Shown here: piece by piece, positions 4,013 through 50,122 of the stretch
How positions within the stretch are numbered: position 1 is the first letter of the stretch
How the letters are laid out: each line of letters starts with the position of its first letter
From: Kineococcus sp. TRM81007
GTDB taxonomy: Bacteria > Actinomycetota > Actinomycetes > Actinomycetales > Kineococcaceae
DNA: 57,823 nt
Assembly: GCF_022669155.1 (NCBI RefSeq)
Contig: NZ_JALBVB010000019.1
Location: forward strand, 1 to 57,823
Reading direction: 5' to 3'
Program-made: the position numbers and the translations under genes
Notes under the pieces: generated by a model
Databases searched by the model: none
The model's input: the letters and a program-made list of their open reading frames with translations, nothing else
Told to the model about the DNA's origin: nothing

Positions 4013-4161
4013 GCCCCCATGCTCGCCCGGCGCTCCACAAGCCGGCCACCGGGCCGGTCCTCCACAGGGGGTGCCCGCGGGGCCGGTGCCGGGCGAGGCC
4101 CGCCCTAGCGTCCCGGCGGGACGAGCACCGGCCGCAGCCGGCCGGAGGAGGAGGAGCGGGC

Positions 4162-4455
4162 GTGGGAGCGGGACTGGGCGAGGAGCGGTTGGCGGAGCTG
4201 GCGCGGGAGGTCGCCCGGGCCGGCTCCCGGGTGCAGGAGGTCCACGCCCGACTCGTCGGGGTGGACGGCGTCGAGTGGGACGGCGCGAGCGCCGCGGCCT
4301 TCCGCTCGCGCCTGGCGGAGCTGACCCGCGGCGCCGGGGCCGTCGCCGCGGCGTGCGAGGAGGCCGCCGGCCGCCTCGCCGCCCACCGGGCCGCCGTCGC
4401 GGCGCTCGGGGTCGCGACCGCCCCCGGTGCGGGCCCCCTGGCGGGTGCGGCGTGA
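4162..4455 (+). CDS. WXG100-like small helical protein
   Basis: A 97-residue protein predicted to be two helices around a W-x-G turn (VEWDGASAAAFRSRL, residues about 37-51), as in ESX/type VII secretion substrates and the N-terminal helical domains of polymorphic toxins. A strong purine-rich RBS (ggaggaggaggag) precedes the GTG start. The stop overlaps the GTG of the next gene, so the pair is translationally coupled. No EccC-like secretion ATPase occurs in the window, so export is only an inference. It may instead be a chaperone or partner for the hydrolase. Confidence 0.7.
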   Translation: MGAGLGEERLAELAREVARAGSRVQEVHARLVGVDGVEWDGASAAAFRSRLAELTRGAGAVAAACEEAAGRLAAHRAAVAALGVATAPGAGPLAGAA

Positions 4456-6056
4456 GCGGTGCCCTGACCGTCAGCGCGGGCGCCGTCGCCGTCGACCCGG
4501 ACGTGCTGGACGCCGCCGCCGGCGTGCTGGCGGGGGCGGCGGCGGACGTGGTCGCGTGCGGCGCGGACCTGGCGGGCGTCGCGCTGGACCCCGCGCTGCT
4601 GCTGAGCGTCCCGCTGGCGCCGGCCACCGGGGTCCCGGCGGGGCGGGCGCTGGGTGAGCTGCTGCTGGGGCGGGGGGCTGCGGCGCCGCTGGCGGCACGG
4701 GTGCTGCTGCTCGCGGGGCTGCTGCGCACGGCGTCGCTGCGCTACCGGGTGGGTGAGGAGGCCGTGGCGGCCGTCGTGCAGGTCGCGCGTCGCGCCGCCG
4801 CCGAGGTCGTCGTGGGAGCCGCACCGGCGCTGGCGGCCGGGGCGGCGGGCGCGCTCGCGGCCGACGTCGCGCTGCGCACCGCGCAGGCGCAGGACGCCGT
4901 GCTGGTGCGGGCGCTGGCTCAGGTCGCCGCCACGGGTGAGGTGGACCTGGAGGCGCTGGCGGTGATCGCGGCGGAGGAGCACGGCGCCGTCGACGACCGC
5001 GTCCGCGCCGACGTCCAGCGGGTGGGGCTGCTCCTCGCGCGGCACCCGTGGCTGGTGCAGGAGGCCGTCGCCACCACGCCCGCGGTGCTGGGGGCCGCGT
5101 CCGGGCGGGTGCCGGCGCTGGGGGTGGGGCTCACCGTGCTCGCCCCGCAGGTGCTGCAGCCGCACGCGGGGGCGACGGAGCTCGCCGGGGTCTTCACGGC
5201 GCTGGGGGCGTTCGGGCCGCTGTTCCGCGAGACGGCGGTGCGGGTGGTGCCCGCCGCGTCGCGGGCCGTGCCGACCCGGCCGCCGCGGGGCATCGCGGAG
5301 GTCCTCGACGGGGTGGCGCACCAGTCCACCGGCTTCGCCCCGCACGGCCCGGCGGGCTCCGTGGGCGACCGTATGCCCCCGGCCGGCACGCCGGAGCCGG
5401 GGACCGTCCGGCTGGAGCGGGTCACGGGCGCGGACGGGCGGCGGGCGTGGATCGTCGAGGTGCCCGGCACGCAGGACTGGACACCGCTGCCGTCGGCCGG
5501 TGGCACCCCCATGGACCTGACGACCAACCTGCGGGCCGTGGCCGGTGAGCCCACCGCCACCGCCGCGGCCGTCGCCGAGGCGATGCGGCGGGCCGGTGTC
5601 GGGGCGGGGGAGCCGGTGATGCTGGCCGGGCACAGCCAGGGCGGTCTGACCGTGGCGGCCCTGGCCGCCGACGAGGCGTTCCGCGCCCGCTACCTCGTCA
5701 CCCACGTGATCACCGCCGGCTCGCCGGTGGACGGCATCGAGGTGCCGGAGGAGGTGCGGGTGCTCTCCCTGGAGCACACCGGGGACGTGGTGCCCGCGCT
5801 GGACGGGCGTGCCGCGCAGGCGTCGGGCTCGCGCACCGTGGTGCGGCGCGACGTGGGGGAGGACCCGGACTTCGCCGCGGACGTCGCGAAGGACCCGCTG
5901 ACGTCCCACGGGTGGCGCACGTACCTGGACACCGCCGCGCTGGTGGACGCCAGCACCGACGAGGCCCTGGTGGCCTACCGGTCCTCCGCGGCGGCCTTCC
6001 TCGACGCGCCCGGGGCGCGCGTCGACGTCTTCGACTACCGGGCGGAGCGGTCGTGA
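4452..6056 (+). CDS. Alpha/beta hydrolase, lipase-like, partner of WXG-like protein
   Basis: A 534-residue protein. The first ~310 residues are an alanine-rich, probably helical region with a short hydrophobic stretch. The C-terminal ~220 residues are an alpha/beta hydrolase with nucleophile elbow GHSQGG (Ser395) and an Asp in the LEHTGDVVPALDG strand; a late His in DPLTSHGW could complete the triad. The closest recognisable types are PGAP1/lipase-like esterases. The GTG start overlaps the WXG-like stop. No signal peptide is visible. Substrate unknown; an ESX-type effector or a cell-wall lipid esterase are both possible. Confidence 0.75.
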   Translation: MSGALTVSAGAVAVDPDVLDAAAGVLAGAAADVVACGADLAGVALDPALLLSVPLAPATGVPAGRALGELLLGRGAAAPLAARVLLLAGLLRTASLRYRVGEEAVAAVVQVARRAAAEVVVGAAPALAAGAAGALAADVALRTAQAQDAVLVRALAQVAATGEVDLEALAVIAAEEHGAVDDRVRADVQRVGLLLARHPWLVQEAVATTPAVLGAASGRVPALGVGLTVLAPQVLQPHAGATELAGVFTALGAFGPLFRETAVRVVPAASRAVPTRPPRGIAEVLDGVAHQSTGFAPHGPAGSVGDRMPPAGTPEPGTVRLERVTGADGRRAWIVEVPGTQDWTPLPSAGGTPMDLTTNLRAVAGEPTATAAAVAEAMRRAGVGAGEPVMLAGHSQGGLTVAALAADEAFRARYLVTHVITAGSPVDGIEVPEEVRVLSLEHTGDVVPALDGRAAQASGSRTVVRRDVGEDPDFAADVAKDPLTSHGWRTYLDTAALVDASTDEALVAYRSSAAAFLDAPGARVDVFDYRAERS

Positions 6057-44116: not shown

Positions 44117-44374
44117 TCACGACCCGCTCGTCCACCGACGGCTTCGGTGATGGAGCCGTCCACGGGCACGTCGTCGGAGCCGTCCACGGACACGTCGTCG
44201 AGGTCAGGGCCGATCACCGTGTCGCAGGCGGCCAGGGTCGCGGTGAACACCTCCTGCCCGATGCCGGCGGCGGTGGCAGGACGGGCCCCCGGCGAACGCC
44301 TGCCCCGTCCCGTGTGGGCCGCCTGCTGCCGGTCGCTCCAGGACGGTCCAGCCGTGCGGCACCTGCACGCTCAC
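44068..44374 (-). pseudogene. Frameshifted small gene at the end of the exporter operon
   Basis: A GTG at 44374 overlaps the permease stop (GTGA), as in an intact operon. It opens VSVQVPHGWTVLERPAAGG and reads well to FAGGP, where the frame breaks near 44279-44282; dropping one base restores PATAAGIGQEVFTATLAACD and then DDVSVDGSDDVPVDGS. The latter contains a duplicated 24-bp unit (44152-44175, 44176-44199). No family is recognised. It runs into the DrrB remnant, so its 3' end is unclear. Confidence 0.5.
44152..44199. repeat. 24-bp tandem duplication in the remnant gene
   Basis: Two adjacent 24-bp copies differing at one base; on the minus strand they encode DDVPVDGS and DDVSVDGS. Confidence 0.75.
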
Positions 44375-46034
44375 GCGGTCGTGTCCCGCCGGCGCAGGGC
44401 CGCGGTGGCTGCGGCCACCAAGGTGGCGGACGTGATGGTGATGAGGGCCAGCGGAGGCAGGGTGACCGCCTCGTGGGGCGCTCTGGGGGTCAGGGCGAAG
44501 GGCGCCGCCTCCAGGACCGCGCCGGGGAGGTCGAACAGGGGCCCGTACAGGCCGACCAGGATCGAGGCCACGAGCAGCGTCCAGACCCACCACTTGCCCG
44601 CGCGCAGGCCGTGGGCGAGAGCGGCCAGCCCCGTGAAGCACAGCACGGTCGGCAGGTGGGCGAGGGAGGCGAGCGTGAACGCGCCCACGAGGCCAGGATC
44701 GCCGACCGAGCTCGCGGCTCCGGCGCCCACACCCAAGCCGGAGACGAGCAGCAGCACGGTCGAGCTCAGGGCGCTCACCAGGAGAGACCCGCCCAACCAC
44801 GCCGGGCGGCTGACCGCGGTCGCCAGGACCACGCCGGTGCGGCCCTCGTCCTCCTCGTGGTTGAGCCGGTTGATCGAGACCACGGCGTGGACGGCTACCG
44901 CCATGGCGAAGAACGCCAGGAACGCGGACAGGGTCGAGCGCAGCACGTCGTCCTGGCCGGCACCGCCGAAGACCTCCGCGAGCTGCGGCTGGGACTCGAA
45001 GCTGTCCACGATGCCCTGCCCCGTGGAGCCGGTGAGGAGGGCGAACACGAACAACCCGACCGCCCACCACGCGATCGAGGCCCGCTCCGCGCGCAGGGTC
45101 AGACCCGCGGGGCTGAGCAGTCTCGACTCGCCGCGGGGCGACCACGCCGAGCCGGGAGCAGACCGGCGCCGACGTCGCGGTGCCCGACCAGCCCGAACGA
45201 CGCCGTCAGCAGGAGGGCGGCCACGCCGACGCCGACAAGGAGCGGCCACCAGCGCAGATCGACGAACGCTCGGGTCTGCTGCGCCCACCCGATCGGCGAC
45301 ATCCACGACAGCGTGCTGCCGCCGGGCTGGGCGGCATCACCGACCCCGCGCAGCACGTAGGCCAGGCCGAGGAGCCCGCCCGCCGTCCCGGAGGCGGTGC
45401 GGGCGTGCTCGCTGAGCTGGGCGGTGACTGCGGCGAGGGATCCGAGGACGAGTCCGACCACGGCGGCACCGGCAGCGATGGCGGCCGAGTCGGGCAGTGC
45501 GAGGTCGTTGACCAGCAGCGCGGCGAGCAGCACCGCTGCGAGCAGCACCGCTGCGATCGCCAGGTTCGCCACGAGGAGCAGGACGAGCGCGGCGGTCAGC
45601 GGGGCACGGCGTCCGACGGCACCGGCGCGCACGAGGTCGACGCGACCGGCCTCCTCCTCGGCCCGGGTGTGGCGCACGACCAGGAGGATCGACATGAGCG
45701 CGACAGCCACGGCGATCATGCCGAGCACCTCGTTGGCGATCATGACCCCGGGCGTGTAGTCGTCCAGGCCGTAGCCCGGGCCGGTCATGAACGCGCCCGA
45801 GGGGTCCCTCACGATCTCAGCTCGGGTCTGCATCGCGGCGGCGTCCGGGTAGACCGCCGGGATGGCCGCACCGAAGTACGCGATGAGCCCGCCGATGCTC
45901 AAGGCCCACGCCGGGATCCTGACGCGGTCGCGGCGCAGCCCGAACCGCAGCAGGCGGCGGGTGCCGGTCAGTGCGGTGCTCGATGACGGTGCCGCGTGCG
46001 GGCCGCTCTCGCGGCTGCGGGTGAGCGTGGTCAC
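44371..46034 (-). pseudogene. Frameshifted ABC-2 permease of polyketide-exporter type
   Basis: Two consecutive frames together form one permease of about 555 residues, the normal size for tetronasin/polyketide-type ABC exporter permeases. The N-terminal half (GTG 46034, about six membrane segments) reads to GLLPARRGRPAAS and stops at 45099; the C-terminal half continues in another frame as ESRLLSPAGLTLRAERASIAWWAVG to 44371. The break is near 45121-45130 at a CGAGA dinucleotide duplication: removing GA gives SRLLSPAG. It overlaps the ATPase stop (GTGA). A sequencing error is possible, but its neighbours are also broken. Confidence 0.8.
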
Positions 46035-46687
46035 CGCGCACCACCCGACGTGCTGGCCGCACCGGCACGTGCCGGAGCGCCGTCGTAGTGGTGGACGAAC
46101 AGCTCCTCGAGCGTGGGCGGGGTGACCACGAGGTTCGCGATGCCGGAGGCGGCCTCGGTGATGCACTGCTGGAACGTCAGCTCCATCAGCGGGTCGAGTC
46201 CCGAGGTCGGCTCGTCGAGGACGAGCAGCTCCACGTCGCCGGCCAGCGCCGCGACGAGGGCCACCTTGTGCCGGTTGCCCTTGGAGCAGGTGCGGGTCCT
46301 CTTCGTCGGATCCAGGTCGAACCGCTCCAGCAGCTCGGCCTTGCGGGCGCGGTCCAGGCGGCCGTGCAGGCTCGCGAGCAGGTCGATGACCTCCCCACCG
46401 GTCAGCTTGGGCCACAGGTTGACGTCACCGGGCACGAGGCGCCGAACCGGTCGGGCCTGGTGGGCCGCTGCCGAGCCGACGTGGACGGCGCTGCGGACCG
46501 CTCTGGGATCCGGGCGGCACGAGCACCCGGGTCGCGACGCGCACCACCCCGCCGGGTGGGAGCGGCTCTCGACTCCAGCGCGACCGGCTGCGACCCCGGT
46601 GTCGGTTCTTCGGACGAGCCACTCCCCGGACCCGCCGGCACCAGCATCCCCGCTCGGTCCAGCCGTCGCGAGAGGCGCGGTCGACAT
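46031..46687 (-). pseudogene. Decayed ABC transporter ATPase
   Basis: The C-terminal part is plainly an ABC ATPase of the polyketide-exporter family: [40 protein letters not shown] (signature region) and [15 protein letters not shown] (Walker B). Two losses disable it: the region before VPGDV, which should carry Walker A (GPNGAGKS), does not read as such in any frame; and after [10 protein letters not shown] about 100 residues are missing, jumping to [17 protein letters not shown], normally the extreme C-terminus. The possible start ATG 46687 gives 218 residues against a usual 300 or so. Confidence 0.8.
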
Positions 46688-46797
46688 GGAGAGGAACCGT
46701 GACCGTGACGTCGCACCGGTATGGTGCACGCACTCGTTCGGAGGCGCGCGATCAGGGATGCGCCGGTGCCGGTGCGTCGCGCTCGGCGGGTCCCGCG

Positions 46798-47241
46798 TCA
46801 GCCGATCCGCTCCGCCAGGGACACGATGATCCCCTCCGGCCCGCGCACGTACGCCATCCGCCAGGTGCCCTCGTGCTCACCCACGCCGCCGACCAGGCCG
46901 TACCCGTCCGTGGCCAGCTGTTCGATGACGGCGTCCAGGTCGTCCACCTCGAAGGCCACGTTGCGCAGCCCCAGCTCGGTGGCCACGGCGGTGGGCGAGC
47001 CCGGCTGGTGCTGGGGCTGTTCGAAGGTGGACAGCTCCAGCGAAGTGCCTCCCTGCGGTGCTCGGAGCATGACGATGCAGGTGCGGGAGTCGCGGATGCC
47101 GATGACGGTGTCCAGGAAGTCGCCTTCGACCACCGTGGGGCCGGCATCGACTCGAAGGCCCAGGGCGACGAAGAAGGCCGTCACCTGCTCGAGGTCGGCG
47201 ACGGTGATGCCGACGTGGTCGAAGCGGCGGATCGATGGCAT
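46798..47241 (-). CDS. VOC-family (glyoxalase/dioxygenase-like) protein
   Basis: A 147-residue protein of two beta-alpha-beta-beta-beta modules. [22 protein letters not shown] opens the first, and [21 protein letters not shown] the second; His and Glu at module starts and ends (HVGI, LELSTF, YVRGPEG) match metal ligands of the superfamily. The RBS (ggaggaga) is strong. Reaction unknown: lactoylglutathione lyase, resistance protein or dioxygenase are possible. It sits between the decayed exporter and the amidohydrolase-shell genes. Confidence 0.82.
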
Positions 47242-47800: not shown

Positions 47801-48544
47801 GTGCCCAACACCTTCCCCGCTTTCACGGCCGCCGGACTCGCCGCCGTGCGCGCCGGCGCCGACCGGCCGCTGCTGCTGACCAACGCGACGGTCCACACCC
47901 TCGACCCGCTGATCGGCACCGTGCGCGGCGCCGATGTGCTCGTCGGCGGGGCGCTGATCGTCGGCGTCGGACCCGGCATCGTCACCGCGGCCGAGGACGA
48001 CGGCGCCGTGGTCATCGACGCCACCGGCACCACCGTGCTTCCCGCCCGCCTGGACGCGACCGCCACCCTCGACGCCGCCGCGCGCGGCGCCGGCCCCGGG
48101 ACGCTCGCACCCGGCGCGGACGCCAGCCTCGTCGTCGTGCCCGACGCGCACGCCCCGGACCTGGCCACGGCGCTGCACACCTCGTTCACACGGCCCGAGC
48201 TGCTGCTCGCCGTGCTGCGGGAGGGGCGCCCCGTCCGCTGGGCCGGGGACCCTCTCGGTCCCGCGCCGGCCCGTACTCGGCTGCAGCCCGACCGGCTCGC
48301 GGTCGACCCGAGCCGGGTGGGCGTGTGGGTCGACACCGACGACTTCCTGCACCAGGAACTGACCGCCGACGGCCGCTACGACGAGACTCGCGGTGGCCGC
48401 CCGCACGCCTTCACGGGCCGCTACTGGATCGACGGTGACCGCGTCGACTACCTCGACGACCTCGGCTTCTGGGCCTTCGGCCGGTTCGCCGACGACGCCC
48501 TGCACCACGCCGGCTACACCATGCACCGGGAGGACGCCCGATGA
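47801..48544 (+). CDS. Collapsed amidohydrolase shell fused to an Atu4866-type domain (copy 1)
   Basis: A 247-residue protein. Residues about 22-85 match the N-terminal composite sandwich of amidohydrolases (LLLTNATVHTLDPLIGTVRGADVLV, then VIDATGTTVLPARLDATATLD); normally the metal motif HxH and a 300-residue barrel follow, but here the chain passes directly to the C-terminal sandwich (GTLAPGADASLVVVPDAHAPD). Residues about 172-247 form an Atu4866-like domain (GVWVDTDDFLHQELTADGRYDETRG, ending FADDALHHAGYTMHRED). No metal ligands remain. GTG 47801 follows gtggagcc. The stop overlaps copy 2 (ATGA). Confidence 0.72.
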   Translation: MPNTFPAFTAAGLAAVRAGADRPLLLTNATVHTLDPLIGTVRGADVLVGGALIVGVGPGIVTAAEDDGAVVIDATGTTVLPARLDATATLDAAARGAGPGTLAPGADASLVVVPDAHAPDLATALHTSFTRPELLLAVLREGRPVRWAGDPLGPAPARTRLQPDRLAVDPSRVGVWVDTDDFLHQELTADGRYDETRGGRPHAFTGRYWIDGDRVDYLDDLGFWAFGRFADDALHHAGYTMHREDAR

Positions 48545-49311
48545 GCACCGACCCCACCCCGGACGCGCCGAACCGCTCCGCCACCGCTCCCGACCGCCTC
48601 GTCCTGCTGCGAGGTGCGAGCGTCGTGACGATGGATCCTGCGCCGGGCGCCGTCGCCGCCGGTCACGCCTCGATGCCCCCGCCGCGCGCCGACACGTTCG
48701 TCGTCACGGGTGTGCACGTCAGGACGAGGCCCGGCACCGTGGCGCCCGGCGAGCTGCACGTGGTCGGGAAGCGTCTGGGCGGGGGGCCGGCTGATCCGCG
48801 AGTGGAGGTGATCGGCGCCGACGGCGCCCACGCCGTCCCGCTGCTGGTCGACAGCGCCGTCGCACAACTGCCGCCCGCCCGGCGCGGCGGGTACGACCTG
48901 GTACCCGGCAACCCGGCCACCTTCGCCGTCGTGCGCCGCCCGGTCACCGAGGCGCAGGTGCGCACCGTGCTGGTCGTCGACCCGCGGGACCTGCTGGCGG
49001 TGTGGGTCGCCGGACACCTCGAGGCCTGGGACGGCGAGCCGACCCGGACCGCGGGAGAGGACGTCGCCGACCCGGCCGTCCGGGCAGCGTGGGTGGGCAC
49101 CTGGGAGGACCCCCACCACGGCCTGCTGCAGCACCTGCGACCCGACGGCCGCTACTCCGAGACCCGGGGCGGGCGCGCCGACGCGTACACCGGCCGGTAC
49201 TGGCTGCACGAGGACCGGATCACCTACTTGGACGACTCCGGATTCTGGGCGTTCGGCCAGCTGCTGGACGGCGTCCTGCACCACGCCGGGTTCGTGATGA
49301 CCCGACGCTGA
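48541..49311 (+). CDS. Collapsed amidohydrolase shell fused to an Atu4866-type domain (copy 2)
   Basis: A 256-residue paralogue of the preceding protein, translated in overlap with it. Residues 20-32 (LVLLRGASVVTMD) and about 117-164 (GYDLVPGNPATFAVVRRPV then DLLAVWVAGHLEAWDGEP) are remnants of the amidohydrolase sandwich, again without barrel or metal ligands. An inserted middle part contains VRTRPGTVAPGELHVVGKRL. Residues about 182-256 are an Atu4866-like domain (GTWEDPHHGLLQHLRPDGRYSETRG, ending LLDGVLHHAGFVMTRR). The two domains are about half identical to copy 1. Function unknown. Confidence 0.7.
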   Translation: MSTDPTPDAPNRSATAPDRLVLLRGASVVTMDPAPGAVAAGHASMPPPRADTFVVTGVHVRTRPGTVAPGELHVVGKRLGGGPADPRVEVIGADGAHAVPLLVDSAVAQLPPARRGGYDLVPGNPATFAVVRRPVTEAQVRTVLVVDPRDLLAVWVAGHLEAWDGEPTRTAGEDVADPAVRAAWVGTWEDPHHGLLQHLRPDGRYSETRGGRADAYTGRYWLHEDRITYLDDSGFWAFGQLLDGVLHHAGFVMTRR

Positions 49312-49705: not shown

Positions 49706-50122
49706 GTGGCACCCCGCCTCAGCCCCTACGTCTCCCTCCCCGGCACCGCCCGCGAGGCGCTGGCGTTCTACCGGTCGGTGCTCGGCGGGGAGGTGAGCAC
49801 CTCCACCTTCGGCGAGTTCGGCGGCGGGGGCGCCGAGGGCGTCGACCCCGACGGCGTCATGCACGGCCAGCTCGACACCCCGTCCGGGTTCACGCTGATG
49901 GTCTCCGACGCGGTGGCCGGGACGTCCCCGGCCACCGGCAGCAACATCGCCCTGTGCCTCTTCGGCGACGACCTCGAGCAGTTGCGAGGCTTCTTCGACG
50001 GCCTCGCCGAGGGCGGGGAGGTCACGACCCCGCTGGAGGTGCAGGTGTGGGGCGACCCGTACGGCGCCCTCACCGACCGGTTCGGGGTCGACTGGATGGT
50101 CAACGCCTCCACCCCCGCCTGA
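49706..50122 (+). CDS. PhnB-like VOC-family protein
   Basis: A 138-residue protein of the 3-demethylubiquinone-methyltransferase-like/PhnB group of the VOC superfamily: LSPYVSLPGTAREALAFYRSVLGGE at the start, GEFGGGG, GVMHGQLDTPSGFTLMVSD in the middle and WGDPYGALTDRFGVDWMVN at the end. GTG start with caggagg eight bases upstream. Members of this subgroup lack a proven activity. It is convergent with the VWA gene (stop 50212). Confidence 0.85.
   Translation: MAPRLSPYVSLPGTAREALAFYRSVLGGEVSTSTFGEFGGGGAEGVDPDGVMHGQLDTPSGFTLMVSDAVAGTSPATGSNIALCLFGDDLEQLRGFFDGLAEGGEVTTPLEVQVWGDPYGALTDRFGVDWMVNASTPA

Follow-up and report, generated by a model that had tools for sequence, protein, structure and literature searches.

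Two overlapping genes in the window (the whole stretch of DNA analysed, 57,823 nucleotides of contig NZ_JALBVB010000019.1 from Kineococcus sp. TRM81007) end in an Atu4866 domain, and an earlier sequence-only reading took both for the shell of an amidohydrolase without its catalytic barrel. The locus raises the question of whether these genes are a designed pair, members of a stable family or the debris of an enzyme. Two open reading frames overlapping by ATGA are indeed present, and are referred to here as genes A and B. The best overall explanation, which we regard as probable, is that they are a deletion derivative of a conserved gene set, A-M-C-(regulator), with the shells serving as a scaffold and the Atu4866 domains as the ligand-binding part. 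The features of the locus are:

47801-48544, plus strand: gene A, 247 aa, GTG start; amidohydrolase sandwich without barrel, followed by an Atu4866 domain
47861-48262, plus strand: shell (sandwich) of A, residues 21-154, without barrel and without the THRH metal motif
48311-48529, plus strand: Atu4866 domain of A; PF11512, 128.4 bits; PDB 2jmb, E 3.9e-17
48541-49311, plus strand: gene B, 256 aa, ATG start; first 44 codons of M joined in frame to a full C-type gene
48541-48672, plus strand: what remains of M's 5' end, with homology to about 48663; M's start codon kept, GGGAGGA just 5' of it
48663-48673, no strand: deletion junction, with a net loss of about 1256 bp relative to five relatives
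48673-49311, plus strand: C-type shell-Atu4866 gene within B, 212 aa; ancestral start position kept as the ATG at 48673
49090-49305, plus strand: Atu4866 domain of C/B; PF11512, 106.2 bits

Domain composition of genes A and B

Profile searches placed a C-terminal Atu4866 domain (PF11512, cut-off 25 bits) in both A (125.5 bits) and B (103.4 bits), each with the DGRY(D/S)ETRGG motif, as the sequence-only reading had stated. These matches take in the last 73 residues of A and the last 72 of B and lie far above the cut-off. In the Atu4866 structure 2jmb the match nearly fills the chain of 79 residues, whereas in A and B the domain stands behind an amidohydrolase shell. The fold of 2jmb is a streptavidin-like barrel with a supposed hydrophobic ligand, and no activity or role of PF11512 is known to us. 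Across 22 A-type sequences, 31 of 73 residues are invariant in the Atu4866 domain compared with 18 of the 169 ahead of it, and the invariant charged residues of the domain are R192, D194, E195, R197, D219, D220 and H236.

The first part of A had as its top match the N-terminal part of the NF006056 amidohydrolases (E 4.7e-8, profile positions 5-63 of 449), and NF006056 was also the NCBIfam model nearest to the shell (32.2 bits, with the runner-up family at 17.4 bits). The predicted fold of A resembles the two-piece sandwich of triazine hydrolase, 134 model residues being aligned across a span of approximately 440 in the target chain. By this comparison A possesses the composite domain, a sandwich of N- and C-terminal pieces, and lacks the (beta/alpha)8 barrel that lies between those pieces in catalytic amidohydrolases; the THRH metal motif was not found in A. 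It differs from TrzN and similar triazine hydrolases in lacking both barrel and metal motif, and A and C differ likewise from the NF006056/PRK08204 amidohydrolases. The list of fold matches is dominated by the sandwich domain and hardly probes the Atu4866 part, which matches 2jmb in sequence and is modelled with low confidence.

The shell of A bears the closest relation to the enzyme M described below. Alignment of A with M by hhalign gave 98.5% probability and 45% identity over 76 columns, while the C-terminal half of the shell was scarcely detected when the two were compared directly (BLASTP E 0.092). A profile of the A shell matches a full amidohydrolase (locus L098) at residues 29-92 and 381-451, flanking its barrel. 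That A is itself a recent deletion product like B was ruled out, as none of the 22 aligned A members (239-269 aa) has a barrel. In the absence of barrel and metal motif, hydrolase activity is not expected of A or C. As a rule, the amidohydrolase sandwich occurs only together with the barrel. Collapsin response mediator proteins (CRMPs) are non-enzymatic amidohydrolase relatives in which the fold is reused without an enzyme role; CRMP-5 was among the fold matches of A but is full-length (a 485-residue chain), whereas A and C are without the barrel. Two families that keep the sandwich alone indicate that it can stand by itself and be reused.

Gene B and the A-M-C-regulator gene set

A and B are paralogous (BLASTP 37% identity, E 6e-31), but comparison with relatives indicates that B is more than a simple paralogue. 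A scan of GTDB contigs yielded 17 loci. Where A, M, C and the regulator were mapped, six loci have the order A-M-C: Puerhibacterium (L036), Isoptericola (L037), Oerskovia (L038), Nocardiopsis (L047), Cellulosimicrobium (L050) and a member of the same genus as the window (L053, genome G004). Further mapped loci have A and M with C absent. M is a complete amidohydrolase (463 aa, PF01979) with the HxH motif, and that of L036 belongs to NF006056 (408.4 bits, cut-off 391). The next gene after C in all of the six but L047 encodes an MltR/MmyB-like regulator with the MLTR_LBD domain (PF17765). PMC3406030 describes the one structure of this family, with a bound fatty acid, tentatively assigned as myristic acid, and gives the natural ligand as not known. 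In the plasmid records consulted, A- and C-type genes labelled only as ‘Atu4866 domain-containing protein’ adjoin an ‘amidohydrolase family protein’ and a ‘helix-turn-helix transcriptional regulator’, a naming that hides the shell.

The window has neither a full-length M between A and C nor a regulator beside C, and a profile search for the MmyB-like regulator found no match anywhere in the window. A profile of M matches B at 48544-48669 (positions 4-45 of 466), stopping three bases short of the C shell, and the C-shell profile takes over at 48673-49086 (positions 2-139 of 140). The second, very weak M match in B (positions 401-435, E 0.034) lies within C's own shell, the remaining matches in the window being the shell of A; the best NF006056 stretch in B, in its shell, is from the C-terminal end of the profile (352-434 of 449, 16.1 bits). 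The distance from the start of M to the start of C is 1388 nt in five out of five relatives (L036, L037, L038, L050 and L053) and 132 nt in the window, so approximately 1256 bp (about 1.26 kb) has been lost here. This spacing is not constant throughout, since it measures 1586 nt in L047, which is more distant and stands outside the five-relative comparison. Compared base by base with the five relatives, the sequence switches from M-like to C-like within about ten bases, at a junction inside the contig. Since 1388 is not divisible by three, M and C are out of frame with each other in the five relatives, and the deletion in the window brings the M remnant and C into one frame.

These comparisons make it very probable that the locus arose by deletion from the conserved A-M-C-(regulator) set, with M cut to its first 44 codons. 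On the sequence evidence, the “VVTMDP” start of B is that of M, residues 1 to about 41 of B coming from M's 5' end, and the ATGA overlap is the former A-M junction, a product of the deletion rather than the ancestral layout. The sequence-only reading had assigned a barrel-less sandwich to both genes; this holds for A, on the basis of its NF006056 match, fold match and missing THRH motif, whereas the start of B belongs to M and B's own shell begins only at 48673. Nor is the reading of A and B as a designed overlapping pair supported, since the catalytic M separates A and C in the closest relatives and has been excised here. A lies directly before C at no other mapped locus, and the same tandem arrangement, a count of which in other genomes had been suggested, was thereby ruled out as a conserved one.

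Inspection by eye revealed a purine-rich GAGG/GGAG stretch immediately 5' of the start of A, and GGGAGGA ahead of 48541 with nothing similar before 48673. The fused product is therefore likelier to be made than C from the internal ATG. The structure model of B has a mean pLDDT of 45.5, with block means under 40 in the M leader.

Disrupted genes also occur at other loci. In the same-genus locus L053 (G004:C841:1-20000), gene A (4014-4853, minus strand) contains in-frame RSS and DGTH repeats inside the Atu4866 domain and looks damaged, while M is intact and C and the regulator are also kept, the reverse of the window. At L089/L127 (G372:C1, near 9344857), the M that adjoins an A-type gene is itself split over two frames.

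Occurrence of barrel-less shells

A census of the shell families, in which the window's two shells are counted, gave 27 A-type and 14 C-type rows, plus 31 of free-standing Atu4866. It enters one A-type gene twice (L120 and L144), merges rows of the same type with identical Atu4866 segments (e.g., L037 and L045 for A, and L050 for C) and omits Atu4866 matches, among them L052 and L064, with a model coverage below 80%. A full M match and an Atu4866 domain were found in one frame in none of the 41 shell-Atu4866 rows. The THxH motif is present in all 16 M rows, none of the 22 A rows and none of the 13 C rows; three A rows and one C row have a stray HxH elsewhere in the sequence.

Both shell families span a dozen or so actinobacterial genera, and the barrel-less shell-Atu4866 proteins are almost certainly a stable actinobacterial family and not debris peculiar to the genome of the window. 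Here the sequence-only reading was right to propose a stable family, and the pattern that it gave as pointing to debris, homologues that all carry a barrel with only this genome lacking it and elevated substitution rates, was not observed. No description of the class was found in the literature searched, which covered few subscription papers; the one mention of such a gene is a table entry in PMC12904279.

Apparent barrel-less hits were also obtained outside the class (G615, G362, G426 and G467). Those at L098, L101 and L104 were rejected as full amidohydrolases by the M model; at L108, also outside the class, that model matches only positions 21-85 of 466 (42.6 bits) in a 459-residue frame.

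PF11512 is patchily distributed, with matches in 13 of 248 genomes from the order and 25 of 394 from the class, and within the genus an A-type gene occurs in two of 11 genomes, a third (G008) matching residues 17-87 of A only. The M tree, in which four of 15 inner branches are well supported, places members of several families close together. The patchiness of PF11512 and this tree suggest that lateral transfer may have spread the genes.

A full M lies within 2.5 kb of 17 of the 27 A-type and five of the 14 C-type rows, one more A-type row having M in two frames. No M was found within 2.5 kb of nine A-type and nine C-type rows, of which six and seven, respectively, are flanked on each side by 2 kb or more (the window being counted in both), the other three and two being too near an end. 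Such lone A and C rows indicate that M is not obligatory. A regulator occurs within 2.5 kb of 15 A-type, five C-type and 14 free-standing Atu4866 rows. On crude gene calls, the neighbours of lone shells are mixed and include transporters, oxidoreductases, a TPP enzyme, a glucanase and TerC, among others. Three lone C-type shells (L059, L060 and L063) come from genomes of about 8 Mb of one genus, each with TerC nearby; at L060 and L063 the shared neighbours also include an alpha-1,3-glucanase and a thioredoxin-TPR protein. Free-standing Atu4866 genes stand beside an MmyB-like regulator in opposite orientation at eight loci (L121, L123, L125, L128, L129, L130, L132 and L133).

Selection, proposed role and alternative explanations

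Selection was assessed by the Nei-Gojobori method, which is simple and was applied to genes of extreme base composition, so the dN/dS values are rough. The window's A gave 0.39 against L036, 0.40 (L037), 0.31 (L038), 0.28 (L050), 0.33 (L039) and 0.58 (L053), and its C gave 0.28-0.44 against seven relatives, near the values among the relatives themselves; third-position GC is 0.93. M among relatives gave 0.15-0.35. Within A, the Atu4866 domain (0.09-0.50) was lower than the shell (0.36-0.63) in 15 of 15 pairs. These values imply that the genes have been kept, the shell more loosely than the Atu4866 domain. Judged from these codon comparisons, A and C are under purifying selection that mostly predates the deletion; as most of the time measured lies before that event, the dN/dS values are no proof of selection after it.

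The rest of the genome contains an intact paralogue of M (C39:13822-15162; 62% identity over 443 residues) with the same DTHRH motif, which scores 390.9 bits against NF006056, just below the cut-off of 391. In the M tree its branch is long and joins the A-linked M proteins rather than the two outgroups. About 1 kb away lies a regulator gene (C39:16140-16964), whose product shares 48% identity with the L036 regulator. Of the three Atu4866 matches in the genome, two are those of the window and the third stands free at C43:156309, so that none is near the M paralogue. This paralogue could be a substitute for the lost enzyme.

We suggest, tentatively, that the shell is a scaffold and that the Atu4866 domain binds a ligand near M. 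The shell of A would derive from an M-like enzyme and form a folded scaffold, perhaps docking M or its kin via the sandwich, and the Atu4866 barrel would be the working part, holding a small, probably hydrophobic ligand common to M and the MmyB-like regulator. This interpretation draws on the concentration of invariant residues in the Atu4866 domain, the linkage of A with M, the resemblance of the shell to M and the presence of an MmyB-like regulator, from a family with a fatty-acid-bound structure; against it are the shells that occur without M among mixed neighbours. In the window, A and C may form a heteromer. They may either serve the intact M paralogue, which is on a different contig, or function independently of M, as appears to be so for isolated A and C genes elsewhere. 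A more elaborate version, which we consider doubtful, is that in a widespread actinobacterial class the sandwich was freed from the barrel once or twice (in A and in C) and reused as an adaptor bringing the ligand-binding Atu4866 domain to an M-type hydrolase, and that the window's adaptors outlived the enzyme next to them and now act on its paralogue at another locus. The A-M-C-regulator set supplies Atu4866 with an enzyme partner and a probable regulator, which opens the way to a search for the ligand, and the genome of the window, as a natural enzyme deletion, offers a test of the role of the shell without M.

The main alternative to a scaffold and ligand-binding role is that the locus is decaying, A and the fused B being on their way out after loss of M and the regulator, with no present role. 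We regard this as somewhat unlikely, though several observations fit it: M is lost and the regulator was not found in the window, the 41-codon M remnant has somewhat high dN/dS (0.40-0.86 against five relatives), the selection measured mostly precedes the deletion, the A gene of G004 has repeat expansions in its Atu4866 domain, A is broken into several frames at L052, and a neighbouring ABC ATPase frame (46034-46729) matches the later part of its profile only. Against decay, A and C are open over their full length with dN/dS near that of their relatives and the third-position GC noted above, purine-rich sites precede both the A and B starts, and lone A and lone C genes occur elsewhere. It is less likely still that A and C are enzymes with an active site in the Atu4866 domain and a shell that merely stabilises it. 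The many invariant charged residues in 22 sequences would suit such a site, but no PF11512 activity is known to us, and the common free-standing domains (31 rows) neither support nor exclude it.

Two further alternatives concern the junction. The fusion may have been selected, the M leader providing C with a good ribosome-binding site and an N-terminal extension and leaving A and B translationally coupled. B does inherit from M both the GGGAGGA site and the ATGA overlap with A, and is in frame although the M and C frames differ in relatives; yet a random deletion would be in frame one time in three, and the leader is merely 44 codons, not clearly constrained and modelled with pLDDT means under 40, which makes selection for the fusion improbable. 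An assembly error, with a false short junction and M really present, might be entertained for a draft genome of 60 contigs. It is very improbable, since the switch from M-like to C-like sequence takes about ten bases in the interior of a contig, and the sole close M in the remaining assembly is the 62%-identical paralogue at its own locus.

The sequence-only reading had also described the two genes as intact beside a decayed region. A and C are indeed open and conserved, but the locus itself has lost M. Of the 137 positions in the ABC_tran profile, the ABC transporter ATPase frame (minus strand) covers no more than 56-137, and an ABC-2 permease-like frame at 44374-45306 falls below its cut-off; these two frames are probably the decayed region that was meant. 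Glyoxalase-family genes of ordinary appearance lie on both sides of the locus, at 46801-47241 (minus strand) and 49706-50119 (plus strand).
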